Of a stretch of 64,000 bases of DNA, positions 6,203-60,797 are shown one piece after another. The first letter of the stretch is position 1. The number at the start of each line of letters is the position of its first letter. The stretch comes from Hyphomicrobium sp. LHD-15 (lineage in GTDB: Bacteria; Pseudomonadota; Alphaproteobacteria; Rhizobiales; Hyphomicrobiaceae). The translations under genes and the position numbers were made by a program. The notes beneath the pieces were generated by a model. The model saw nothing but the letters and a program-made list of their open reading frames with translations. It was not told the origin of the DNA and made no database searches. The stretch covers positions 1 through 64,000 of the forward strand of contig NZ_JAVIFT010000001.1 in assembly GCF_031157355.1 (NCBI RefSeq). Direction: 5' to 3'.

Positions 6203-9200
6203 TCAGAGAACGAAATCGTGGGACGACAACGTTGCGACCTTGACCAGGATCTCGAAGTCCGCAACGCCGTCGCCATTGACGTCGCCGCTGACGAGCGCAC
6301 CGTCATCAGACGCCGTGTAGTGCAACTGTCCGGCCTTGTTCGTGAACTCGGCCGTGCCGAGCCACGAGAAGGCCTGATTGCCTTTCTTCAATGTGTTGGC
6401 GTCGATCCCGCTCAGATCGATGCGATCGTAGCGGTTCTGGAAGTCGAGGATCGTATCGCGACCCGCCCCGACAACCGTGTCCGCGATGTCGGCAAACACG
6501 AAGTAATCGCGTCCCAAGCCACCTTCCAGGATGTCGGTGCCGACCCCGCCGGAGAGCGTATCGTTGTCGGCCCCGCCGAAGAGGCTGTCGTTGCCGTCAC
6601 CGCCGTATAGCTTGTCGTTGCCGGCACCGCCGTAGAGCGTGTCGTTGCCCACGCGGCCGGACAGCATATCGTTGCCGCTGCCGCCATCCAGCCAGTCGTC
6701 ACCGTCGTCGCCGTACAGCTTGTCCTTGCCGCTGCCGCCGAACAGTCTGTCGTTGCCGGCGCCGCCGTAGAGCGTGTCATCGCCCGCTTCACCGCTCAGC
6801 GTGTTGTTGCCGGCGTTGCCGATGATCACGTTGTTGGACGCATTGCCGGTGCCGTCGAGGTCGCCGGTGCCGAACAGCGTCAGGTTCTCCACGTTCGCCG
6901 ACAGCGTGTGGCTGACCGATGCGTGCACCGTGTCCGTGCCCTGGCTGCGGCTCTCGACAACCTGGTCGCCGGCGCTGTCGACGACGTAGGTGTCGTTGCC
7001 CTTGCCGCCGCGCATCACGTCGTCACCGCCGTGCCCGTCGATGTAATCGTTACTCTTGGTGCCGGTGACCGTCTCGCTCGCAGCCGTTCCGTGCACCATC
7101 GCAACGTTGCGCACGTCGTTGATCGCGAGCTTGTAGGTGTCGGTGGTGGCATCGGGCGAGCCGGGGTAGGCCGGTTCGTCGAAGGCGACCGCGACCTGCA
7201 GCTCCTTCAGCGTCTTTGCATCGAGCGCCGCGCCGGCCTTGAGGAACAGCGCGAGTCCGACGATCTCAAACAGCGCCCGGTCGCGGCCGACCAGCGACAG
7301 CGTGCCGGTCGACGTCGAGCCGTTGGTGATGACGATGTCGGCGACCTTGACGCGCTCGAGCGTAGGGGTCGTCTCGGCGAGCGAGGCGACACGGTTGGTC
7401 AGCGTCACGGTCGGCGGGATAGTGTCGTTGACGTCGGTCACGTTGACGACAATCGTCTGCTCGATGCTGTTGCCGGCGCTGTCGGTGACGCGCACCACGA
7501 CCTCGTGCGAGGTCGCCGCCTCGTAGTCGAGGCCGGTGCTATCGGCGACGACGAGCTTGCCGTCGACGATGGCGAAGCGGCCGCCGGCGTTGTTGACGAG
7601 CTCGAAGGTGTGGGTGTCGCCGCTGTCCGGATCGACCGCCGACAGCTCCGCCACAACCGTCCCGTCCGCCGAGTTCTCCGCGACCGAGGCTTCGTCGGGA
7701 AGGATGTCGGTCGGCGCGGCGTTGCCGAGCAGATCGGCTAGCGCAAACGTACCGTCCGCAAACTGCAGGAACTCGATCGAGGAGAGCTGGTCGGTGCCGT
7801 CCGGCGAGCCATCGCGATTGTCTGTTATAATGACGTAGTCGGGATATTGCGGATACGGCTGCTCGAAGGTGTAGTCGGCGCGGTTGCCCGAGTAGATCGC
7901 CGTATCAGTGCCATAGCCGCCCTGAAGAAGATCGTTTCCGGCGCCGCCGTTGAGAATGTCATTTCCGGATTCGGCAAAGGTATAATCGTCGCCGCCGTGG
8001 CCCTCGAAGTAGTCGTCGGTGTAGCCGCCGAACCACTCGTCATAGGCATCCGTACCGATATAGTGCTCGGGTTCGACATCCGTGACTTCCACCCTGAACT
8101 GCTTTTCGAAGGTGCGTCCCGTCGAGTCCGTAACCTGGACCGTGAAGTCCGCATAATTACGCGCCTCGAACTCGAGCTTCAGGCCATTGGCGACGACGAT
8201 CTGATTGCCCTCGATCCGGAATGCGCCCTGGAAGTCGTTGACCAGGCTGTAAGCGAATGTCTCGCCTGTGTTCGGGTCCGCCGCAGACAACGTGGCGACA
8301 ACAGTACCGGTCTCGGCATACTCCGGAAGCGCGACGACATCGGAAAGGATTATGTCGTAAGGCGCACCCTGGCCATCGAGGCTGGCCGCAACCGCGATAT
8401 CGTTGAAAACGATACGTTCGATGCCGATGAGTGTGTCGTTGCCACTGTCGAGACCGGAAACAACCAGGTTTCCGTCGACCACGGTGAGCACGTAATCGTC
8501 GAAGTTGCCGTTGAAAATGACCGTGTCGAAGCCATTTCCACCGACGAACGTATCGCTGCCCGCACCACCCTTGAACGTGTCGTAGCCCGCGCCGCCAGTG
8601 AAGCTGACGGCCGTGTCGGTCATCGCGTGGACAATGACGCCGCCAGCGATGCCAGTCCCCGTGACGCCGCTCGCGTCGATTGTCGTCACGTGGCTGATAT
8701 CGGTTCCTGCGATTGTAAAGTCCCAGCCGACGTTGCCTGTGAGCGTTACCGTCGTCGCGTTATCGAGCACGAGCGCAAACTCGAACGAGTTCTCTCTCGG
8801 CAACGTAAAGTCGGGATAGAAAGGCAGAAGCGCTCGTAGATTGGGCGTGTAATCGGTGCGCGCCATAGTTGTGATATTGACGGCCGTGGCGTCGGCAATG
8901 TGCACGATCCCGTTGATGTCATAGTCCGGACGTCCTGCCGGGAGGCCGACATAGTCTTCGGTTTGCGTGAACTTGTCGGCGAAGAGGATATTGAGCGCGC
9001 TGCTGCCTCCAACGAGATTGACGGTGCCGAAGTTCGTCGCCGTGCTCATCGCCTTGAAGGTGACGAGAGAGCCTTCGGCAAGTTCAACGGTATTGTTGCC
9101 CGCAGTTCCGCTCGTTCCCATGACACGAATGTCGAGAAGATCGTCGAACTTGTCGGCGTTGACGGTGTGCGAGCCAGCGTCGACGTCGAACTGGACGGAT

Positions 9201-12200
9201 TCGAAGTTGGAAATCGAGCCGCTTATGTCGGCGATGGCCGCAGCGGTCGTGAACGACATGCGGATGACGTCCGACGATCCGACAGGGTTGTCGCCGCCGT
9301 CGATGGTGCCGCCGTCGATGGCGCCCGCACCAAGCAGCCACACCTCGTCGCTGCCACCACCCATGTCGATCTGACCCTTGAGGCCTTGGCCCGTGTTTTT
9401 CTCCGATGTTGCGCCGGTGCCGATATTGCCGAGTTGAACGAACTCACGCCCATCGCCGCCATAGAAGCGGAACTCCTCAGAACCGCCGGCGGTCGCGAAC
9501 GCGCTGTCATCGAGCGCCGTTTCGATGAAGATGCTGCCGTAGGGGCCATTGCCGCTGTTGTTCTGGCCTTCCAGCACTTCCAGCATGCTCAAAGCGCCAG
9601 TACGCATGTCGATCTCGCTGACCAGCGGAATGTACCACTTGAGCGCGAGCGTTCCGTCGTTCTGCTTGAACCTGATCGATTCCGCGGAGGCAAACGACAG
9701 ATTGTAATCGTCGTCACCCGCACCATTCATGTAGCTCTGATAGGCGAAGCCATGGTCGTAGAAGATGACATGGGTTGCCGCATCGTCGGTGATGCGCTGA
9801 CCATCCGCCAGATCTACACCCAGGAAGAAAAATTGTAGCGTGCGATCGCCTACTTGGTGGGCATCGACGGTGATGCTGCCGCTGCCGTGATTGTAAACGG
9901 AAAGTGACGTCACCGCGTCGGACGAAATAACCGTGTCACCTTTAACCCCGTCGAGGGTCACAAACTGCAATCGGTCCTTGCCACCGTTTTCGGCGCCGAC
10001 ATCCTGCAGGTTGACGTCGTTCGCACCGCCGATGAACGCCGCGACCTCGTAGTCGTCCGCCGTGAACGCCACATCAGGAAGCGGATTTGGCAAGCCTCCG
10101 GATCCGCTGATGAGGTCGTGGACGTACACGAGCGGCCGCACCATCTGATCCAGAGTCCGGTCGGTGAACTCGAATCTCTCGACGGTGTTGAATTGGACGA
10201 GTGTTCTCTCGACGTCGCCGGGGGTGGTGCGCTCGACGAGTATGAAGTCTCCGTTTAGGCCGGTGATGCGGTAATCTTCATATCGGCCTTCGAAAACTAC
10301 CGTGTCGATGCCGTCGACTCCCAAGGCAGGAATATAGCCGCCGACGGTGCCACCATACACCTCGTTGTGGACACCCGTGCCCGCATAGATGCGATCGTCG
10401 CCGAATCCACCTTCGATGTAGTCGCTACCGGCGCCGCCGTAGAGGATGTCATTACCACCGACAGTGCCGTAGTTGTGGTTGTCGCCCAGAATGATGTCGT
10501 CGCCGTCAAGGCCGTAGATGATGTCGTCGCCCCATTCACCAACCAGCTGATCGTCGCCGAACTGTCCCGAAGTCAAAAGGGTGAAGTCATTGAGCTGGTT
10601 GCTGCCCTGGATGAAATCGTTGCCCCTGCCGCCATAGATCGTCTCGCCTGCCGCGCGGAGGAGCGGACCGCCAGTGGTGTTTACGTTCGAGCCGCCACCG
10701 ATCAGCGTGTCGTTGCCATCGCCGCCGTAAATCTCGTCGCTGCCCGCACCACCATCGATGTAGTCGTCACCGCCGCCGCCGGACAGCACATCGTCCCCAC
10801 CCTTGCCGAAGATGCGATCGTTGGCGCTCTTAGCGTAAATGACGTCCGCTTCGTTCGTCCCGATGATTTCTTCATCGACCAGGCCGCGTAAGCCATCCGT
10901 CACTTCAGACGAAACCTCGACGGGGTTGAAGCCATCGGGGCGATCCTGGGCCTGCCCCATCGCATCCGGTGCGGCCGAGACGATCCTGAAATCGTCGAAT
11001 GACAGATCAAGCGGAATGTTTTCCGCCTCGAAGACTGCAAAAAGAATTGCAATCGAATCCGCGCCGCTACCGTCAGCATCGTAGTACAGCGATCCCGTCG
11101 CCAGATCGTAGAGAACATAGTCATCGCTGTCGGCAGCCTCGTTGCCGAGATAGAACATCGTCGACACGAGGGACGAGCCAATCAAGGCTGCGAGCGACGT
11201 AAAGATCGAGGCGTCGAGCCAAATGCTGTCATCGATGTGAGAAAAATCGGTGATGATATCAACGTTGGTCGCAGCATTCAGGGCGCGATCGAATAGGAAG
11301 TTGTCGGCGCCAACGCCTCCGGTCAGTCGATCGTTGCCGGCGCCGCCGGACAGGGTGTCATTACCAGCGCCGCCGAACAGCATGTCGTTGCCGCGCATGC
11401 CATGCAGCCGGTTGTCGAGATTGTTGCCGTAGAGTTCGTCGTTACCGTCACCAGTGACGGCATTCTCGATGTCGGTGCCAGCGGCAATCCTGACGAACTC
11501 CACGCCGCCTGCCGTCGAGGACGCGCCGCCTTCAAGGCGGATCACCAGATTGGAAGCAATCGCCGCGGCATTGATCCAGTCTTTGCCGCCGTCGCTATCG
11601 GTGAGCGTCAGGCGGCTGCCATCGCGCGCAAGAGATTCGAAGACCTCGTTGGTGTAGTGATAGACGTCCGCAGTCAGATCGTTGATTGCCTGTTCGCCGT
11701 CGGCGCCGTGCAGAGTGATCTTGACGGAGTCCAGCGTCCCGGCGTCTTCGACCCAGTGGTCAACGATCCGCAACGTCCACTCTCCGGCGCCGTCTTCGCC
11801 GCGGAACGCGTTCACGCCAAACTCGGCTTTCCAGCCCGTATTCGAGCCGTAGTACCATTGCAGGTTGAAGTCGATGAGGCGGATTTCTGTCCCGTCAGGC
11901 GAAATTAGAATGATCTCGAGGTCGTCGGTAAGCTCGTGTGACAACACGACCTCAACGTTGACGAAATCGACTGCGAATTCGCCGCCGTCGAACGTGAACT
12001 TTATGTCGGTCGTCTTGCCGTCTTCGAGGGCGACCCCCTCCGTCATTGTTTGGCTATAGCTCGACTCGTTAGCGCTTGCCTTCGGGCCACCGAATAGGGA
12101 CCAAACCTCCGCCATGCGTACGGCGTTGTAGGCGTCGACACCACCGAAGCCGTAATCGTTCGAGAAATGCAGGCCGCCACCGTTCCAGTTGTCGGCGTTG

Positions 12201-13492
12201 TTATAGAACCAGCGGTTGCTTTCGTTTTCTAGTTTGTCGCCGCCGACGCCGCTACCCTGCTCGTGCGCGGAGTAGGCCAAGATATTCTGCACATCGCGCC
12301 AGCCGAGGTTTTCGTTGGCCTGCAGCATGAGCGCGATAACGCCGGTGACGATCGGTGTGGCACCCGAGGTGCCGCCAAATCCGGGCGTATAGTCGGTATC
12401 GGTATTATTGCCGTTTTCATCAGTGAACCCGTTGTAGCCGTAATACCAGGGAGCACCACCGTCTTGAGCGTAAGCGCCAGATCGGTCGGTTGTGACCAAG
12501 CCTGCATTGCGCTGTTCCAGAATGTTTGCAAACCCGCTGGACGGCGCGGAGACGAGCAGGTTCGAGCCGTGGTTCGAATAGTAGGAGGCGTCGCCATCGT
12601 CGTCGAATGCGCCGACGATGATCGTTGCACGTGACGAGGAGCTCGACGTGCCGTTGGCATTGAGATTCTGGTTGCCGGCGGCCTTAACCTGGATCGTTCC
12701 CAAACCATCTCGACCGTTGTCGAGGGCAGACATCCATGCTTCGACGGTCGCCTGACCCTGCCAGTAGTAATAGGGATCCAGGTTCTCCTGGAAGAAGTAG
12801 GCGCCATCGCCCCAGCTATGGTTGACGACATCGAAGTTGGTCGTCTGGTAGGCCGCCTCGAGAAATCCGTCGAAGAAGGTATTGATGTCCGTCATCTTGT
12901 GACCGGACAGGATATCGACCGTCGTGAAGGTGACGTCGTAAGCGACGCCGACCGTCCCGACACCATTGCGGGCAGCCGCGATCAGGCCGGCGACCGCCGT
13001 GCCATGCTGTGCACCATCGTAGAAAGGAAGGCCGGTCGTCGAGGCGATCCCCGTGGGATAGGGATCGACGTGCATGAAGCCCCACAGCATCGCTTCAAGC
13101 GAGGCGTCGTAGTTGGCCGCGAGGTCGGGGTGATCAACCACGGGAACGCCATCGATGTAGGTGGCGTCCATACCGTCGTCATGAATGCCCACCTTCACGC
13201 CGAGGCCGGTGTACTCCTCCCAGATCTTCTGGATGTCGCCGAGCCAAGCGAAGTGCCACTGCTGCTCGAAAAGATGATCGGTGGGAGCAGCCTCGGTAGA
13301 GGCCGTGGTGGTGGTCGGCACGAACGCGACCGACGCTCCGCCGCCGGGAGCTAGAACAGGCCTCGCGCCGAATACGGCCAAGTCACCGCCTCCGACTGCG
13401 AACCGCATGCCGTCAACGAGCGAAACGTCGGACAGCTTTGCCCATGCGCTCTCGTTCAGCGCCAAGGCGCTGTTGGTCACTGCAGAACTCAT
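6203..13492 (-). CDS. Giant subtilisin-like (S8) protease with P-domain, RTX repeats and cadherin-like domains
   Basis: The 2429-residue protein has no Sec signal. A peptidase S8 domain spans about 85-465 with the catalytic triad visible: Asp105 (IHDDGMD), His163 (QHGTAVAG) and Ser376 (GGTSGATP), plus oxyanion Asn274 (AAGNQN). A proprotein-convertase P-domain follows at about 480-595. Calcium-binding GGxGxDxLx nonapeptides occur in several blocks (about 680-735, 890-1030 and 2215-2325), with cadherin-like DP..G..F/Y modules in the C-terminal half. The last ~105 residues resemble the serralysin C-terminal domain that serves as a type I secretion signal. Secretion through a TolC-type ABC exporter is inferred; no exporter genes lie in the window. 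GGGGAGGGAG precedes the ATG. Confidence 0.92.
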   Translation of the reverse strand: MSSAVTNSALALNESAWAKLSDVSLVDGMRFAVGGGDLAVFGARPVLAPGGGASVAFVPTTTTASTEAAPTDHLFEQQWHFAWLGDIQKIWEEYTGLGVKVGIHDDGMDATYIDGVPVVDHPDLAANYDASLEAMLWGFMHVDPYPTGIASTTGLPFYDGAQHGTAVAGLIAAARNGVGTVGVAYDVTFTTVDILSGHKMTDINTFFDGFLEAAYQTTNFDVVNHSWGDGAYFFQENLDPYYYWQGQATVEAWMSALDNGRDGLGTIQVKAAGNQNLNANGTSSSSSRATIIVGAFDDDGDASYYSNHGSNLLVSAPSSGFANILEQRNAGLVTTDRSGAYAQDGGAPWYYGYNGFTDENGNNTDTDYTPGFGGTSGATPIVTGVIALMLQANENLGWRDVQNILAYSAHEQGSGVGGDKLENESNRWFYNNADNWNGGGLHFSNDYGFGGVDAYNAVRMAEVWSLFGGPKASANESSYSQTMTEGVALEDGKTTDIKFTFDGGEFAVDFVNVEVVLSHELTDDLEIILISPDGTEIRLIDFNLQWYYGSNTGWKAEFGVNAFRGEDGAGEWTLRIVDHWVEDAGTLDSVKITLHGADGEQAINDLTADVYHYTNEVFESLARDGSRLTLTDSDGGKDWINAAAIASNLVIRLEGGASSTAGGVEFVRIAAGTDIENAVTGDGNDELYGNNLDNRLHGMRGNDMLFGGAGNDTLSGGAGNDRLTGGVGADNFLFDRALNAATNVDIITDFSHIDDSIWLDASIFTSLAALIGSSLVSTMFYLGNEAADSDDYVLYDLATGSLYYDADGSGADSIAILFAVFEAENIPLDLSFDDFRIVSAAPDAMGQAQDRPDGFNPVEVSSEVTDGLRGLVDEEIIGTNEADVIYAKSANDRIFGKGGDDVLSGGGGDDYIDGGAGSDEIYGGDGNDTLIGGGSNVNTTGGPLLRAAGETIYGGRGNDFIQGSNQLNDFTLLTSGQFGDDQLVGEWGDDIIYGLDGDDIILGDNHNYGTVGGNDILYGGAGSDYIEGGFGDDRIYAGTGVHNEVYGGTVGGYIPALGVDGIDTVVFEGRYEDYRITGLNGDFILVERTTPGDVERTLVQFNTVERFEFTDRTLDQMVRPLVYVHDLISGSGGLPNPLPDVAFTADDYEVAAFIGGANDVNLQDVGAENGGKDRLQFVTLDGVKGDTVISSDAVTSLSVYNHGSGSITVDAHQVGDRTLQFFFLGVDLADGQRITDDAATHVIFYDHGFAYQSYMNGAGDDDYNLSFASAESIRFKQNDGTLALKWYIPLVSEIDMRTGALSMLEVLEGQNNSGNGPYGSIFIETALDDSAFATAGGSEEFRFYGGDGREFVQLGNIGTGATSEKNTGQGLKGQIDMGGGSDEVWLLGAGAIDGGTIDGGDNPVGSSDVIRMSFTTAAAIADISGSISNFESVQFDVDAGSHTVNADKFDDLLDIRVMGTSGTAGNNTVELAEGSLVTFKAMSTATNFGTVNLVGGSSALNILFADKFTQTEDYVGLPAGRPDYDINGIVHIADATAVNITTMARTDYTPNLRALLPFYPDFTLPRENSFEFALVLDNATTVTLTGNVGWDFTIAGTDISHVTTIDASGVTGTGIAGGVIVHAMTDTAVSFTGGAGYDTFKGGAGSDTFVGGNGFDTVIFNGNFDDYVLTVVDGNLVVSGLDSGNDTLIGIERIVFNDIAVAASLDGQGAPYDIILSDVVALPEYAETGTVVATLSAADPNTGETFAYSLVNDFQGAFRIEGNQIVVANGLKLEFEARNYADFTVQVTDSTGRTFEKQFRVEVTDVEPEHYIGTDAYDEWFGGYTDDYFEGHGGDDYTFAESGNDILNGGAGNDLLQGGYGTDTAIYSGNRADYTFEQPYPQYPDYVIITDNRDGSPDGTDQLSSIEFLQFADGTFALADLLGNAAPTDILPDEASVAENSADGTVVAELSAVDPDSGDTHTFELVNNAGGRFAIVDGKLVVADSTGLDYEAATSHEVVVRVTDSAGNSIEQTIVVNVTDVNDTIPPTVTLTNRVASLAETTPTLERVKVADIVITNGSTSTGTLSLVGRDRALFEIVGLALFLKAGAALDAKTLKELQVAVAFDEPAYPGSPDATTDTYKLAINDVRNVAMVHGTAASETVTGTKSNDYIDGHGGDDVMRGGKGNDTYVVDSAGDQVVESRSQGTDTVHASVSHTLSANVENLTLFGTGDLDGTGNASNNVIIGNAGNNTLSGEAGDDTLYGGAGNDRLFGGSGKDKLYGDDGDDWLDGGSGNDMLSGRVGNDTLYGGAGNDKLYGGDGNDSLFGGADNDTLSGGVGTDILEGGLGRDYFVFADIADTVVGAGRDTILDFQNRYDRIDLSGIDANTLKKGNQAFSWLGTAEFTNKAGQLHYTASDDGALVSGDVNGDGVADFEILVKVATLSSHDFVL

Positions 13493-48247: not shown

Positions 48248-48619
48248 ATGATCGAACCGCTGCTCGCTTCGATCGGCTACGACATGCCTGCCTCGAATGG
48301 CGGGCTCGCGTTCGTGTTGCTGACCCTCCTCGTGGGCGGTGGGGCGGCCTGGAGAACCGGGCAAGCCGTTGCCCAATCCTGGCAGCCGTTCTGGCCGGTG
48401 GCCGCCTACACGGCGCTGATCGCGGCCGCCGTGCGCTTCCTGCATTACGCGCTTTTTGGCGGCCTGCTGCTGTCACTTCCCAGCTATCTCATCGACTTGG
48501 CAATCCTGATCGTGGTCGCGCTGCTTGCGTACCGGATGCGGCGCACCCGGCACATGACGGAACAGTATTCCTGGATGTTCGAGCGCGTGAGCCCGTTCCT
48601 GTGGCGGGACCGGTCGTAA
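48248..48619 (+). CDS. Small inner-membrane protein of the liv operon (DUF6867-like)
   Basis: The 123-residue protein has three or four predicted helices (FVLLTLLVGGGAAW, PVAAYTALIAAAVRFLHYALF, IDLAILIVVALLAY) and a conserved-looking C-terminus (TEQYSWMFERVSPFLWRDR). Proteins of this kind follow liv genes in Hyphomicrobiales and are, as recalled, called DUF6867. The start lies 1 base after the livF stop, so it belongs to the operon. Its function is unknown; it may assist the transporter. Confidence 0.8.
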   Translation: MIEPLLASIGYDMPASNGGLAFVLLTLLVGGGAAWRTGQAVAQSWQPFWPVAAYTALIAAAVRFLHYALFGGLLLSLPSYLIDLAILIVVALLAYRMRRTRHMTEQYSWMFERVSPFLWRDRS

Positions 48620-52116: not shown

Positions 52117-53424
52117 ATGATTCCCCGCTACTCACGCCCTGAAATGGCTTCCATCTGGACGCCCGAAACCCGCTTTCGGATCTGGTTTGAGATCGAGGCC
52201 CACGCAGCCTCGGCCATGGCGGAAATTGGCATCATCCCGAAGGAGGCCGCGCGCGTCATCTGGGAGAAGGGCTCGAAGGCGGTTTTCGATACGGCGCGCA
52301 TCGACGAGATCGAGGCGGTGACCAAGCATGACGTCATCGCCTTCCTGACCCACCTTGCCGAGCATGTTGGGCCGGACGCGCGTTTCGTGCATCAAGGCAT
52401 GACCTCCTCCGACGTCCTCGACACCTGCCTCAACGTGCAGCTGGTGCGCGCCGCCGACCTCCTCATCGCCGATCTCGACCGGCTGCTCGCCGCTCTCAAG
52501 ACGCGCGCCTTCGAGCACAAGACGAGCGTCACCATCGGCCGCAGCCACGGCATCCATGCCGAGCCGACGACGTTCGGCGTCAAGCTGGCGTTCGCCTATG
52601 CCGAGTTCGCCCGCGCCCGCGAGCGGGTGGTGGCGGCACGACGCGAGGTTGCGACCTGCGCGCTCTCGGGTGCCGTCGGCTCGTTCGCCAACATCGATCC
52701 CTCGGTCGAGATCTACGTCGCCGACAAGCTCGGGCTGGTGCCGGAGCCGGTCTCGACGCAGGTGATCCCGCGCGACCGGCACGCGATGTATTTCGCGACC
52801 CTCGGCGTCGTTGCGTCGTCGGTCGAACGGCTGGCCACCGAAGTCCGCCACCTTCAGCGCACCGAAGTGCTCGAGGCGGAAGAGTATTTCTCGCCGGGCC
52901 AGAAGGGCTCTTCGGCCATGCCGCACAAGCGCAACCCCGTGCTGTCGGAGAACCTGACGGGCCTTGCCCGCATGGTGCGCGCCTATGCGCTGCCGGCAAT
53001 GGAGAACGTCGCGCTCTGGCACGAGCGTGACATCTCGCACTCCTCGGTCGAACGCATGATCGGACCGGACGCGACGGTGACCCTCGATTTCGCGCTCGTG
53101 CGTCTCGCCGGCGTGATCGAGAAGCTGGTGATCTATCCGGAAACCATGAAGCGCAACCTCGACAAGCTCGGCGGTCTCCACAATTCCCAGCGCGTTCTGC
53201 TCGCGCTCACGCAGGCCGGGGCCTCGCGCGAGGAAGCCTATGCACTCGTCCAGCGCAATGCGATGAAGACTTGGGAAAAAGGCCTCGACTTCCTCACCGA
53301 GCTCAAGGCCGACAAGGACGTGACGGCCAAGCTTTCGGCTCATGAGCTCGAGGCGATGTTCGATCTCGGCTATCACCTGAAGCACGTCGATACGATCTTC
53401 AGCCGCGTGTTCGGGACGGCATAA
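52117..53424 (+). CDS. purB: Adenylosuccinate lyase
   Basis: The 435-residue lyase has MIPRYSRPEMASIW at the start, the catalytic His regions (TSSDVLDTCLN, GRSHGIHAEPTTFG) and the family signature GSSAMPHKRNP. It acts twice in purine synthesis, splitting SAICAR and adenylosuccinate with release of fumarate. The ATG at 52117 gives the normal family start after GAAGAG; a longer reading upstream is unlike the family. It lies in the usual alphaproteobacterial neighbourhood of purC-purS-purQ-purL. Confidence 0.96.
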   Translation: MIPRYSRPEMASIWTPETRFRIWFEIEAHAASAMAEIGIIPKEAARVIWEKGSKAVFDTARIDEIEAVTKHDVIAFLTHLAEHVGPDARFVHQGMTSSDVLDTCLNVQLVRAADLLIADLDRLLAALKTRAFEHKTSVTIGRSHGIHAEPTTFGVKLAFAYAEFARARERVVAARREVATCALSGAVGSFANIDPSVEIYVADKLGLVPEPVSTQVIPRDRHAMYFATLGVVASSVERLATEVRHLQRTEVLEAEEYFSPGQKGSSAMPHKRNPVLSENLTGLARMVRAYALPAMENVALWHERDISHSSVERMIGPDATVTLDFALVRLAGVIEKLVIYPETMKRNLDKLGGLHNSQRVLLALTQAGASREEAYALVQRNAMKTWEKGLDFLTELKADKDVTAKLSAHELEAMFDLGYHLKHVDTIFSRVFGTA

Positions 53425-53437
53425 CGGCAAGGACCGG

Positions 53438-54427
53438 ATGGGATCGTCAGTCAGCCGCGCCGTTGGCTACGGGTGCGCCGCGCTCGGCGCCGCGTTCTTC
53501 TCGACCAAGGCGATCTTCATCAAGCTCGCCTTCGAGGAGCAGGTCGACGCGAGCCTGATGCTCGCCTATCGCATGCTGTTCGCGACGCCGGTGTTCGTCG
53601 CCATCGGCATCTGGGCCTACGCGCAGCGTCGCGCCAAGGGACTGCCGCCGCCTGACCGGCGCAACGTCGCCTGGGCCGTCGTGACGGGCTTTCTCGGCTA
53701 CTACGTCGCTTCCGCCTTCGACTTCGCCGGTCTCCAGTACATCAGCGCCTCGCTCGAGCGGCTGGTGCTGTTCACCTATCCGCTGTTTGTGATGCTGATC
53801 GCGGCCGCCTTCTACGGCGAGCCGCTCACGCGCTTCGGCATTGCGGCGGCGGCCGTTACCTACATCGGCCTCGCCATCGTCTTTACCGTCGATTTGCCGA
53901 CCGGCGGGCGGAATACGGCGATCGGAACCGCCCTCGTGCTCGGCGCGGCGATCTCGTTCGCCTGGTATCAGATCCTCGCCAAGCGCTTCATCGCGCCGCT
54001 CGGCACCGCGCTGTTCACAAGCGTCGCGCTGACGTCGGCAGGCGTTTTCTGCGTGCTGCATCAGGTGGTGTTCGGCAGCGGCAGCTTTGCGGCCTCGCCG
54101 CGCTTCCTGTGGCTGTCGTTCGGCTGCGCGATGGTGGCGACAGTACTGCCGACATTCCTGATCAACGCGGGGCTCGCGCGGGTTTCGCCCCAGGCTGTCT
54201 CGATGATCTCGACCGTGTCGCCAGTGGTGACGATCGGCCTTGCGATCCAAATCCTTGGCGAGCCGTTCACGCCCGTCGACGCGATCGGCTCCGCGCTCGT
54301 GTTGCTGGGCGTCGGGCTTTTTACCTTCGGTGACAGCCGGTCGAGACCGGCACGCGTTGCACCGCAGGCATCCGCGTCCGCTCCCGCCGAAATCCTTCCC
54401 GGTCCGGCCCGGGCTTCCGAGCCCTGA
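53438..54427 (+). CDS. EamA/DMT family transporter
   Basis: The 329-residue protein has about ten membrane helices in two EamA repeats (first KAIFIKLAFEE...MLAYRMLFATP, second FAWYQILAKRFIAPLG). The C-terminal tail after residue 305 is Arg/Pro/Ala-rich and cytoplasmic. DMT transporters export or import small metabolites; the substrate is unknown. It starts 13 bases after purB and may be co-transcribed with it. Confidence 0.9.
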   Translation: MGSSVSRAVGYGCAALGAAFFSTKAIFIKLAFEEQVDASLMLAYRMLFATPVFVAIGIWAYAQRRAKGLPPPDRRNVAWAVVTGFLGYYVASAFDFAGLQYISASLERLVLFTYPLFVMLIAAAFYGEPLTRFGIAAAAVTYIGLAIVFTVDLPTGGRNTAIGTALVLGAAISFAWYQILAKRFIAPLGTALFTSVALTSAGVFCVLHQVVFGSGSFAASPRFLWLSFGCAMVATVLPTFLINAGLARVSPQAVSMISTVSPVVTIGLAIQILGEPFTPVDAIGSALVLLGVGLFTFGDSRSRPARVAPQASASAPAEILPGPARASEP

Positions 54428-54578
54428 ACCCGGGTTCGTAGTCTAGGCCCTGAACGCGTGTGCCGCGCGGAACACGTCGTCGTTGCCAATCGAGGCTACC
54501 TCTCGGACTATGGCCCGCGGAGGCCAGGCGTTGCAGGTCTTGGTGACATGCCGCTCCGATATGTGCCGGACAAACCAG

Positions 54579-55652
54579 ATGCCTCAGAAGTTCGACCTCT
54601 CGTTCGACCAAGGCTCGCTCGCGCGGCGCGGCGCCATCACACTGGCCGCGCTTTTGGCTTACTGCGTCGGGTCATGGATCGTGCTGCCCGGGATTGACGC
54701 CAGCGCGCTCATTGGGCCGGCATCGCCCAGCGGGCTCGCTTCCAAAATCGGCCGGCTTTCCATCCTGGCGCTCGGTATCGTGCCGATGCTGTCGGCACTG
54801 GTCCTGGTAGAGATCGCTCAGATGGCGTGTCCGCCGCTGCGCCGGTGGGCAGGCGCGACCGCATCCAACGGGAGATCGCTCGATGGCTGGGTGATCGTGC
54901 TCACGCTCGCTATCGCCGGGTATCAAGCGAATGGGGTCGCGGTCGCGCTCGAAGGCATTGGCGCGCTGGTGCCCACGCCGGGACTTGCGTTCCGCGCCGG
55001 CGTGATCGGGACGCTCGTCGCCGGGAGCGCCTTCGTGGTCTGGCTGACCTCGCTCGTCACACGTCATGGGCTCGGGTCCGGATTTCTGCTGCTGCTTGCA
55101 GCACCCCTGTTGATGGCCCTTCCAAGCCTCTTGCCGTCGCAGATCCTCGCCTGGGGAGATGAGAGCCAGCTCACCATCCCGCTGACGCTCGCTGCTTTTC
55201 TCGCGGCGGCGAGCGCAGTGGTGGCGGCTGCCCGCATCTCAGCGCAGCCTGACGGCAAGGGTCAGTTGCTGTGGCCGGTGCTGATTGCCTACACACTCGC
55301 GCCGTGGCTGCTCGTGCCGCTGCTGCCGCAATTTTCGTCCGAGGCATTCCTCAACGCACTCGAGGCTATGAAGCCCGGCCAGCCGTGGCGGGTTGCGATC
55401 CTGCCGGCACTGACGCTCGTCTTCTATTTCCTGCGCGCCCGATCGTTGGCGCAGGCAAGTTCGACGCCGGACGAGGGCGTGCGATGGCTGCCGGCACTTC
55501 TCGTCGCGTTTGCCGTCGTCGTCTCGGAGTTGATCATGGTCTGGTTGCCCGCGCCGCTCGCCCTCGACGGACGAAACGTGGTAGTCCTCGTGCTGTTCGC
55601 GCTTGCGATCATCGAAGGTCTTGGCCTGCGACATTCGTCAGCAGCCGCGTAG
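54579..55652 (+). CDS. Divergent SecY-like membrane protein
   Basis: About 357 residues with eight to ten predicted helices. The first half follows SecY: TM1 with VGSWIVLPGIDASAL (SecY: PIPGID), SILALGIVPMLSALVLVEI (SecY: ALGIMPYISASI), PGLAFRAG...TLVAGSAFVVWLTSLVTRHGLGSGF (SecY: [20 protein letters not shown]). The second half keeps AFLNAL...QPWRVAILPALTLVFYF but lacks the basic cytoplasmic loops that bind the ribosome and SecA. It is shorter than housekeeping SecY (about 440) and is not in a ribosomal protein operon. It could be a specialised paralogue or a derived membrane protein. The start is uncertain (ATG at 54579 or 54561). Confidence 0.72.
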   Translation: MPQKFDLSFDQGSLARRGAITLAALLAYCVGSWIVLPGIDASALIGPASPSGLASKIGRLSILALGIVPMLSALVLVEIAQMACPPLRRWAGATASNGRSLDGWVIVLTLAIAGYQANGVAVALEGIGALVPTPGLAFRAGVIGTLVAGSAFVVWLTSLVTRHGLGSGFLLLLAAPLLMALPSLLPSQILAWGDESQLTIPLTLAAFLAAASAVVAAARISAQPDGKGQLLWPVLIAYTLAPWLLVPLLPQFSSEAFLNALEAMKPGQPWRVAILPALTLVFYFLRARSLAQASSTPDEGVRWLPALLVAFAVVVSELIMVWLPAPLALDGRNVVVLVLFALAIIEGLGLRHSSAAA

Positions 55653-55770
55653 GACTTCAAAACCGGCTCGGCGACCCCATTTGACAATCCGCATGGATCG
55701 TAAGCACCATGCGCCTTCACCCTTATTTCCCTTCCCCCAACTTCGTGCATTGCTTGTCGAGCGAGGCCCC

Positions 55771-56352
55771 ATGCGTACGTCTGATGTCGACATCCTGATC
55801 GTCCCCGGCAGGTCGGGCTCCGGTCCGGATCATTGGCAGTCGCGATGGGAGCGCACGCTCAAGACCGCGCGGCGCGTCGAGCAGGAAAACTGGGAAGAGC
55901 CCGAGCGCGAAGCGTGGGTGAGCCGCATCATCGAGGCGGCGACGCAAAGCACACGCCCGGTCGTGCTGGTCGCGCACAGCCTCGGCGTGGCAGCGGTCGC
56001 GCATGTGGCGTCACGTATTCCGAAGGGATTCCTTTCGGGAGCGTTCCTTGTCGCGCCCGCAGACGTCGATGCGGCACCCGGATGGCCGGAGACAGACGGC
56101 TTCCAGCTGGACGGGATCAACAGCGGATTTGCGCCGCTGCCACTCGCCCCGCTGCCGTTTCCGTCGGTGCTGATCGCTTCTTCGAACGATCAGTATTGCA
56201 GCCTGGATCGCGCCAAGGCGTTCGCCAACGCCTGGGGCTCGACCCTGGTCGAAGCGGGCGACGTCGGACACGTCAACAGCGAGTCCGGTCATGGCCCGTG
56301 GCCCGAGGGCGTGCTGCGCTTTGGCACGTTTCTGTCTACGCTCACGGACTGA
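55771..56352 (+). CDS. RBBP9/YdeN-type serine hydrolase
   Basis: The 193-residue alpha/beta hydrolase has the early motif VPGRSGSGPDHWQSRWE, nucleophile Ser in VAHSLGV, acid in SSNDQYCS and His in DVGHVNSESG. Proteins of this family are small hydrolases of unclear substrate. The ATG at 55771 follows GAGG; an earlier start adds a non-conserved stretch. It lies downstream of the SecY-like gene in the same direction. Confidence 0.88.
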   Translation: MRTSDVDILIVPGRSGSGPDHWQSRWERTLKTARRVEQENWEEPEREAWVSRIIEAATQSTRPVVLVAHSLGVAAVAHVASRIPKGFLSGAFLVAPADVDAAPGWPETDGFQLDGINSGFAPLPLAPLPFPSVLIASSNDQYCSLDRAKAFANAWGSTLVEAGDVGHVNSESGHGPWPEGVLRFGTFLSTLTD

Positions 56353-56772: not shown

Positions 56773-57132
56773 GACCGTCTCCAACTGGGGTGTTTCCGAC
56801 CGGGTCTGTTCCGGCTTTGTTCTGGGCGAAAAGTGTGTTGTATGGGTCGCACAATTACGCTCTCACCCGGGAGCCGTAACCCGACGTGGCAGACAAATCA
56901 ACGGCTTGTCCGCCGCATGGCCAACAGGGGGTTTGGCCCCCTCGTTTAGATTGTTTCTGCCCCCTGCTTCAGCTAGTGTCCAGAACATGATTTTTGTGCG
57001 TTCGGCCGCCCCCCACCAAGACGAGAAGTCCTAAAATCTCGCTGAAAGATCAAGGGCTCACTGCGTGGGGCAGGCCGTGCTTCCTCAGAGACAAGATTGA
57101 ACATGAGCGTGATCGTCAAGGGACCAGGGTCG
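56773..57132. other. Intergenic region upstream of purC
   Basis: About 360 bases lie between divergent genes; promoters are expected here. Nothing else was recognised. Confidence 0.4.
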
Positions 57133-57921
57133 ATGAACAAGCGGCGTCGGATCTACGAGGGAAAAGCAAAGGTTCTTTACGAAGGACCGGAGCCCGGAAC
57201 TCTCATTCAGCATTTCAAAGACGACGCGACTGCGTTCAACGCGAAGAAGCACGCGCTGATCGAAGGCAAAGGCGTGCTCAACAACCGCATCTCCGAATAC
57301 ATCTTCCAGCGGCTCGGCGAGATCGGCGTGCCGACGCACTTCCTCAAGCGCCTCAACATGCGCGAGCAGCTGATCCGCGAAGTCGAAATCATTCCGCTCG
57401 AAGTCGTCGTGCGTAACGTTGCGGCCGGCTCGCTCGCAACGCGGCTCGGCCTCGAAGAAGGCATGCAGCTGCCGCGCTCGATCATCGAGTTCTACTACAA
57501 GGCCGACAACCTGAACGATCCGATGGTCTCGGAAGAGCACATCACGGCGTTCGGCTGGGCGACCCCGCAGGAGATCGACGAGATCATGCAGCTCGCGCTG
57601 CGCGTCAATGATTTCCTCGTCGGCCTGTTCCTCGGCATCGGCATCCGCCTCGTCGACTTCAAGGTCGAGTTCGGGCGCCTGTGGGACAACGAGCAGATGC
57701 GCATCGTGCTCGCGGACGAGATCAGCCCCGATTGCTGCCGCCTGTGGGATATCTCTTCGGGCGACAAGCTCGACAAGGATCGCTTCCGCCGCGATCTCGG
57801 CGGCGTGCTCGAGGCCTATCAGGAAGTCGCGCGCCGTCTTGGCGTGCTGACCGAGAACCGTCCGCCGAAGGGCGTCGGGCCGGTGCTGGTTGCGTCGAAC
57901 CCGACGGGTAAACCGAACTAA
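57133..57921 (+). CDS. purC: Phosphoribosylaminoimidazole-succinocarboxamide synthase
   Basis: The 262-residue SAICAR synthetase has [52 protein letters not shown] and VDFKVEFGR...LADEISPD. It joins aspartate to CAIR using ATP. The ATG at 57133 gives the usual N-terminus; starts at 57103 and 57097 would add a short unconserved stretch. It leads the purC-purS-purQ group. Confidence 0.96.
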
Positions 57922-58251: not shown

Positions 58252-58701
58252 ATGGTGCGCTTGCCGGCCGTTGTCCTCACCGCCGCCGCGCTCGCCGCTC
58301 CCATCGCCGCAGCCGCCGGAGATCCGGCCGCGCCGACGATTGATTGCACGCTCGGGTTCGGTGGATTGCGGACGTCGGCCGAAAGCCTAGCGGGCGTTCA
58401 GTGGACACAAGTGGGCGGTTACGATATCGCCACGCTGTCGGTGCCGGAGGTCTGGCGCGTCGAGATCGCGTTCACCTCTCCCGGCCATCCGGCGCATCCG
58501 GCCGTTACCCTCAGAACCCGGCGCAAGCAGGTGACGGAGGTGTGGACTGCCGACAGCAAAGGGTGCGGCTACGGTGACCAGGGCCAGTTCGCCATCCTCA
58601 TGGCAGATATGAAATCCGGCGACACCGAACTCACCAACGCGTCACGCTACGACGTCGAGCAGAGGAAGCGGGGCCAATCGCCTCTCGCGCCCGCGAACTG
58701 A
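58252..58701 (+). CDS. Hypothetical exported protein between purS and purQ
   Basis: The 149-residue protein starts 1 base after the purS stop. A signal peptide ([17 protein letters not shown]) is followed by a compact mature domain of about 125 residues with two Cys (IDCTLG, KGCGYG) that may pair. No domain was recognised. Its position inside a purine operon looks like chance insertion and need not mean a role in purine synthesis, but co-transcription is likely. Confidence 0.75.
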
Positions 58702-60401: not shown

Positions 60402-60797
60402 TTACGACTTGTAGGGCGCACGATCGAAGACGCGTGCGTTCATGCGGGTGGCGCCCGGTCCGCAGAAGAACTCGGCCGACTGGCCGGCGCTGGCGTCCAC
60501 CTGGACACCCTTGCCGGGAACGACCGGAACCACGAACCGCGTGCCAGGGCTGTCGAGACCGCTCTCACCGCCCGTGACATCGGCCACGACGACGGTCAGG
60601 TGGCAGGACTGGTCCTTGGTCTCGAAGTAGCCGACGGCGTGCTTGCCGCCGATGTCCAGGCTCAATCCACGACCCGGGACCATGATCTCATGCGAACTGC
60701 CCAGGTCGACCTTTGCGGGAGAGCCGGCGAAGACCACTCCTGCTGCCAGAACACCCATCACTCCCACTGCTGCGAGACGCTTGATCGCCTTCGACAT
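60402..60797 (-). CDS. Hypothetical exported protein
   Basis: The 131-residue protein has a signal peptide (LAAVGVMGVLAAGVVFAGSPA) and a beta-rich mature part with two Cys (QSCHLTV, FFCGPG). The ATG follows AAGGGAT. It is a monocistronic gene with its own terminator. No known domain. Confidence 0.75.
   Translation of the reverse strand: MSKAIKRLAAVGVMGVLAAGVVFAGSPAKVDLGSSHEIMVPGRGLSLDIGGKHAVGYFETKDQSCHLTVVVADVTGGESGLDSPGTRFVVPVVPGKGVQVDASAGQSAEFFCGPGATRMNARVFDRAPYKS

Follow-up and report, generated by a model that had tools for sequence, protein, structure and literature searches.

SecY is nearly always encoded by a single gene, as a scan of 242 genomes of the class indicates, and is slow to change; here a lineage keeps a second copy. 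The gene in question lies at 54579..55652 on the plus strand of the window, by which we mean the whole 64,000-nucleotide stretch of Hyphomicrobium DNA analysed here, and it raises the questions of whether its product is a SecY at all, how much of SecY it retains, and what such a protein could do next to the housekeeping translocon. An earlier note, made from the letters of the sequence, had taken it for a divergent, shortened SecY-like protein encoded outside the ribosomal operon, possibly a specialised translocon or an exapted membrane protein.

A diverged SecY paralogue outside the ribosomal operon

The reading frame encodes 357 amino acids, from an in-frame ATG at 54579 to a stop codon ending at 55652; since the frame is open upstream of 54579, the start is not certain, and translation might begin earlier, at an in-frame ATG (54561) or at a TTG (54483). 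Comparison of the protein (hereafter the short SecY) with the Pfam model for SecY (PF00344) gave a match with an E-value of 4.4e-18 and a score of 66.1 bits, above the curated cut-off of 32.2, and SecY chains in the PDB matched down to 3.5e-19. The Pfam scan, taken to an E-value of 10, returned SecY and a weak HRG match only, with no YidC match and no family scoring better than SecY. The landmarks on which the earlier note had relied are present in the frame, namely LPGID after TM1 (residues 36-40; 54684..54698), ALGIxP, here ALGIVP (residues 64-69), and the GSAFVVWL...HGLGSG segment (residues 149-168; GSAFVVWLTSLVTRHGLGSG).

Models that are specific to particular kinds of SecY were not matched at their cut-offs. 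The housekeeping SecY equivalog (NCBIfam TIGR00967) reached 71.6 bits where 253.6 are required, and with the accessory SecY2 models, TIGR02920 and PRK12417, the scores were 34.2 against 249.6 in one case and 35.5 against 353 in the other. A separate, normal secY (398 bits) is located 450 kb away in the same genome, at G000:C1:505606-506634, with an rpoA-like frame (recognised by eye) nearby, which places the short copy outside the ribosomal operon, as had been proposed. We conclude that the gene at 54579-55652 genuinely encodes a diverged paralogue of SecY, one that might go unnoticed if annotation relied on PF00344 alone and named it simply SecY.

Homology to SecY over the whole length

The Pfam match spans profile positions 1-148 of 306 only, which makes it fair that the earlier note saw SecY landmarks in the first half of the protein; profiles built at the level of the family extend the homology into the second half. 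Specifically, a profile of the C-terminal halves of 18 short proteins recognised the C-terminal half in every one of 22 housekeeping entries, which represent 19 genomes because three were entered twice, with E-values from 1.6e-8 to 2.8e-5 calculated for 1000 sequences, and it matched the housekeeping SecY in all 15 of the genomes with a short copy that were compared (3.5e-9 to 0.019). At an E-value of 10 no hit was obtained among 15 reversed proteins, and no other frame among the window's 385 did better than 1.1; these two controls rule out a chance likeness of hydrophobic helices. The truncated protein of genome G033 scored 0.9 bits with the same profile. In a profile-profile comparison over the whole length, 349 columns were aligned with a probability of 99.9% and an E-value of 3.5e-33, the reversed control giving 0.035, whereas the C-terminal half on its own was weak by this method (probability 10.6%, E-value 0.0029 over 162 columns, compared with 0.37 over 33 columns for the reversed control). 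Taking the profiles together, the short SecY is shown, as far as sequence comparison reaches, to be homologous to SecY and colinear with it over its whole length.

The plug helix is gone and the C4 and C5 loops are largely missing

To describe the anatomy of the short SecY we used an alignment in which 18 short proteins, that of the window among them, stand beside 15 housekeeping SecY sequences and that of E. coli. The protein of G033, which is cut by the end of its contig, is left out of the alignment and of the pore-ring and hydropathy counts below. E. coli positions 58-68, 145-147, 244-264, 299-302, 343-355, 361-373, and 423 are gapped in at least 80% of the 18. The claim that the large cytoplasmic loops are shortened or missing is therefore borne out at 244-264, 343-355, and 361-373, stretches that belong to what we take to be the C4 loop, which joins TM6 to TM7 (244-264), and the C5 loop, which joins TM8 to TM9 (343-373). 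In the window protein the docking loops are reduced to a remnant of C4 at residues 217-230 (55227..55268), where E. coli 244-264 are missing from the alignments, and a remnant of C5 at residues 286-304 (55434..55490), where most of 343-373 is missing. An arginine stands at the place of E. coli R357 in the window protein, as in 2 of the 18, in a part where the alignment is unsure. The plug helix, TM2a, is also absent, a loss that the earlier note had not mentioned: in the window protein E. coli positions 58-67 are lacking from the alignments and a junction of residues 49-56 (54723..54746) takes the place of the helix. The C-terminal tail does not resemble the SecY tail, yet it is not clearly lost.

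Hydropathy averaged over the short proteins has ten peaks at SecY-like places, by a crude method that counts 12 for housekeeping SecY. The distribution of positive charge follows the positive-inside pattern broadly, with 7.3, 3.6, 0.8, 1.6, 2.4, and 1.8 charges per protein in the loops predicted to be cytoplasmic (the first figure being inflated by untrimmed protein starts) against 1.3, 0.2, 0.9, 0.5, and 0.5 in the opposite loops; the loop at 155-170 breaks the pattern.

The plug is described as the periplasmic seal of the SecY pore ring, and the cytosolic loops as the docking sites for SecA, FtsY, and ribosomes, with C5 as the main ribosome contact (PMC8082313). With the lateral-gate helices and the pore ring predicted to be kept, and with gaps opposite the plug helix and the greater part of C4 and C5, the protein is, by its predicted anatomy, a SecY pared down to its channel core. 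Loss of the docking loops speaks against a role as a conventional translocon driven by SecA or the ribosome.

A related protein in G033, encoded at locus L034 (3077-4207), looks intermediate from its alignment. It lacks part of the plug region and keeps part of C4 and a nearly full C5, in which VPPG is found where E. coli has IRPG; the glutamate at E. coli Q93 that is discussed below is already present, and the contig ends inside the gene.

The pore ring is kept and new residues are conserved

Six positions of E. coli SecY, which we take to form the pore ring and whose letters the alignment confirmed, can be traced through the short proteins. In the window protein they correspond to I67 and L71 in TM2b (E. 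coli I82 and I86; 54777..54791), F169 and L173 in TM5 (I187 and I191; 55083..55097), L235 in TM7 (I278; 55281..55283), and V336 in TM10 (I408; 55584..55586). Across the 18 proteins these positions are hydrophobic in 106 of 108 cells, compared with a mean of 68% for 52 other helix columns in which E. coli has I, L, or V, and sets of six columns drawn at random reached the hydrophobicity of the pore ring 7 times in 100000. A ring preserved to this degree favours a channel-like or insertase-like use of the predicted pore.

The family has also acquired constants of its own. An acid in TM2b, E78 of the window protein (54810..54812), stands at E. coli Q93 and is glutamate in 18 of 18 short proteins as well as in G033. 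It is seven residues, or two helix turns, from L71, and so it may face the cytoplasmic funnel. Tryptophans at the positions of E. coli I105, S188, and I275 are each found in 17 of the 18, and an arginine at A334 in 15; the window protein departs from one of these constants, having L170 instead of tryptophan (E. coli S188).

The short SecY is patchily distributed within one family

We found the short SecY in 19 of 103 genomes of the family, in 7 of 25 genera: in 6 of the 8 genomes of the window's genus, in six of genus g8, in two each of g5 and g23, and in one each of g14, g11, and g4. The truncated G033 is included in this count. Candidates that we dropped were those of G064 (a second match in a frame of 206 amino acids, E-value 1.4e-34), G086 (a short fragment where a contig carrying ribosomal genes ends), G024 (E-value 3.5e-4, with no SecY-like gene at its locus L084), and G034 (pieces of the housekeeping secY). 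A scan of named genomes with three members of the family as queries gave two loci, one in an uncultured Hyphomicrobium and one in H. zavarzinii ATCC 27496. The two Hyphomicrobium genomes in which no short SecY was found, G003 and G005, also yield no more than a weaker paralogue when searched for the serine hydrolase that accompanies the gene (see below); the absence from these two is uninformative because the assembly of G003 has no purC and in G005 purC lies at the end of a contig. The gene is, in addition, missing from the assembled loci of the close relatives G083, G086, G118, G119, and G029, which indicates that it is dispensable.

Beyond the family, the C-half model applied to the order at an E-value of 1e-8 hit 5 of 397 genomes, all of them in the family of Hyphomicrobium, in a scan that scored at most eight first-look candidates per genome, so that weak members can be missed. 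The earlier note had taken second SecY copies to be uncommon in Proteobacteria, and in the class this stood up, PF00344 matching twice in 5 of 242 genomes and not at all in 2. The five comprise the window's own genome, three in which the two matches are apparently parts of a single secY that is split or cut by a contig end, and one with a second match of 20.9 bits, under the cut-off. In the order the claim needs tempering, as 10 of 159 genomes have two matches: the window's own, G014 and G088 (both with known short copies), and seven others, which means that second SecY-like genes outside the family are uncommon, yet possible. These seven (G241, G244, G248, G270, G271, G291, and G294), known from match counts alone, belong to other families (f35, f41, f42, and f50), three of them to genus g111, and they are probably among the 397 genomes of the C-half scan. 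So far the short SecY paralogue has been seen in this one family only, and in a literature search on SecY paralogues, accessory Sec systems, plugless or minimal SecY, and Hyphomicrobium none of the matches listed describes such a protein in its title or the start of its abstract.

Fast evolution under light purifying selection

The short SecY changes much faster than its housekeeping counterpart. Between the window genome and 13 others the short copies are 31-41% identical and the housekeeping SecY proteins 84-99%; against G004 the figures are 39% and 99%. The dN/dS ratio of the short copy is 0.19 in both of two close pairs, about eight times that of the housekeeping secY in the same pairs (0.026 and 0.023), so that the constraint is light; eight other genes of the locus range from 0 to 0.18, with the hydrolase at 0.10 in the one pair measured. 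The gene is thus under purifying selection, but light.

A tree built from 19 short and 6 housekeeping proteins puts the short copies on one side of a branch, and in it every genus with several members forms a single group (support 94/90 for g1, 100/99 for g8, and 100/100 for both g5 and g23), from which descent within genera looks vertical. G020 and G097 sit on long branches, and the intermediate-looking protein of G033 falls outside the other 18 short copies. Within g1 the window copy lies outside the other five (100/99), even though the housekeeping SecY proteins of its genome and of G004 share 99% identity; fast change or replacement could account for this. Replacement of the window copy by another allele is possible, and we estimate that light constraint alone could also give this placing.

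The short SecY occupies a variable slot at a purine locus

In the window the gene lies downstream of an adenylosuccinate lyase gene at 52117..53424 that marks the upstream border of the slot and that we take to be purB, and of an EamA-type transporter gene (53438..54427) that is found at some loci only. It is followed by a gene for a serine hydrolase (PF06821; 55771..56352), by one on the minus strand for the ATPase inhibitor subunit zeta (PF07345; 56446..56784), a conserved neighbour that we do not think part of the system, and by what, from its sequence, is presumably purC (57097..57921), the downstream border of the conserved locus; except for the zeta gene, all of these are on the plus strand. 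The usual order is purB, sometimes EamA, short SecY, hydrolase, zeta (on the opposite strand), purC, purS, purQ, and purL. When G033 is left out, purC is near the short SecY in 16 of 18 loci and purB is upstream in 13. The hydrolase follows within about 1.5 kb in all 18, even in G020 and G097, whose loci showed no purine genes. In 11 of the 18 the short SecY and the hydrolase have no called gene between them; opposite-strand frames intervene in the six g8 loci and in G097, and in three loci the two genes overlap by 4 bases.

The interval between purB and the hydrolase (53424-55771 in the window) is variable and may hold the short SecY, EamA, genes that from their sequences we take to be GST-like or DJ-1-like, other genes, or nothing. 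We had considered that the slot might always hide a SecY, an idea refuted by these other occupants and by the genomes with none.

Several further genes of the window are worth recording. A small protein with no Pfam match, encoded at 58252-58701 between purS and purQ, is in place in many loci and has a dN/dS of 0.18 (one pair), close to the rate of the short SecY. Another small protein with no Pfam match (60402-60797, minus strand) has a start that by eye resembles a signal peptide; four of the five other Hyphomicrobium loci have it between purQ and purL. A DUF6867 protein (48248-48619) directly follows genes of a branched-chain amino-acid ABC transporter, as it does in several relatives, and an open frame of 2429 amino acids at 6203-13492 (minus strand) has a strong coding bias.

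What the short SecY might do

The reading that we favour, tentatively and at somewhat less than even confidence, is that the short SecY is a paralogue inherited within genera of the family, stripped to the channel core and provided with a new acid on TM2b, that would act post-translationally as an insertase or chaperone. Without C4 and C5 the protein would have no known docking site for SecA or the ribosome and could not receive substrates from either in the known way; the most likely role would then be that of a YidC-like insertase or a chaperone serving a few membrane proteins or peptides after their synthesis. It might use the single housekeeping SecE and SecG, or neither, and the neighbouring serine hydrolase might work in the same pathway.

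Nearly as likely as an insertase is an auxiliary or regulatory subunit that pairs with SecYEG or competes for SecE, and that tunes or blocks the translocon while moving nothing itself; we regard this as a real possibility, if on balance an improbable one. Each of the 8 genomes of the window's genus has one SecE match, one SecG match, and one full-length SecA match, so that any SecE would have to be shared, and the loss of the docking loops from a core that is otherwise kept is what such a subunit might be expected to show. Fast evolution and patchy presence also fit a non-essential modifier. A pure scaffold, however, would not need the hydrophobic pore ring. If the short SecY does modulate SecYEG, it would be a kind of translocon regulator that these searches have not turned up in Proteobacteria.

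Exaptation of the fold is possible and in our judgement rather unlikely; the protein would then conduct or flip something other than a protein, be it an ion, a peptide, a lipid, or a metabolite, and share a pathway with the serine hydrolase. The constancy of the hydrolase as a neighbour speaks for exaptation, including as it does the two loci away from purB and purC and the three in which the genes overlap, and so do the new conserved acid and the tryptophans. The linkage may nevertheless be positional, given that the hydrolase search hit 86 of the 103 family genomes (G003, G005, and G096 with a weaker paralogue only) against 19 with the short SecY and that purB, hydrolase, and purC occur together without it. 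Opposite-strand frames intervene, moreover, in 7 of the 18 loci.

We think it very unlikely that the gene is a decaying duplicate heading for loss. The constraint on it is relaxed relative to secY, its presence is patchy, and relatives lack it from assembled loci, as would be expected of such a duplicate. The frame is, however, unbroken inside the match in 19 of 19 genomes (the TGA counted in G084 and G088 is the gene's own end, and G033 runs off its contig), and the same stretches are missing from most of the 18 complete proteins, unlike random damage. The pore ring and the family-specific residues are kept across genera. Together with a dN/dS of 0.19 in both close pairs, the unbroken frames, shared losses, and kept ring led us to reject a pseudogene.

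A Gram-positive-type accessory SecY2 system, the parallel that the earlier note had drawn and that proved weak, is scarcely credible here: the existence of another SecY gene, the low-scoring hits to the SecY2 models, and a second SecA_DEAD match in each of the 8 genomes (six above the Pfam cut-off) are outweighed by scores far under the SecY2 cut-offs, by the single SecE, SecG, and full-length SecA matches, by the loss of the plug and docking loops, and by flanks in which, as far as shown, we recognised no adhesin or glycosylation genes. The second SecA_DEAD matches look like helicases, since they score low (21-27 bits, against a cut-off of 24.6), are partial (within positions 99-205 of 290, in frames of 709-770 amino acids), and turn up as well in G003 and G005, two genomes that yielded no short SecY.

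Comparison with known systems

The closest known relative is the housekeeping SecY (PF00344, TIGR00967; E. coli SecY), with which the short SecY shares full-length colinearity, the pore ring, and the TM1 and TM5 signatures, and which it may resemble in having about ten helices. Unlike it, the short SecY has no plug helix, little of C4 and C5, and a glutamate for Q93, is encoded outside the spc operon, and evolves far faster. With the accessory SecY2 (TIGR02920, PRK12417) it has in common that it is a second, diverged SecY gene and that the pore ring is kept. SecY2 is described as keeping that ring and as working with SecA2 and with the SecE- and SecG-like Asp4 and Asp5 (PMC5076819).

A third comparison is with the proto-SecY proposed as an ancestor in a paper on the origins of SecY that also considers YidC/Oxa1 proteins. 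In a table of that paper the plug and C4 share a row as one element, h1h2, that connects the two halves, and C5 is given as an additional connector; the authors mention that mutants with the plug deleted are tolerated, and argue that the plug may have been absent from proto-SecY (PMC8675477). The short SecY resembles it in this respect, being without the plug and the greater part of both loops. Were a plugless, dock-less SecY core to work alone as an insertase, with neither SecA nor the ribosome, it would be a living counterpart of proto-SecY that bridges SecY-type and YidC-type insertion, an idea to which we give some weight and which we nonetheless consider unlikely. The short SecY has no Pfam match to YidC, and it is no relic of the ancestor but a derived paralogue seen in a single bacterial family. 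Should it insert polypeptides or let them pass, it would show what the bare core can do and make ideas about a plugless ancestor testable in a living system. It could serve as a natural test of how little of SecY suffices.
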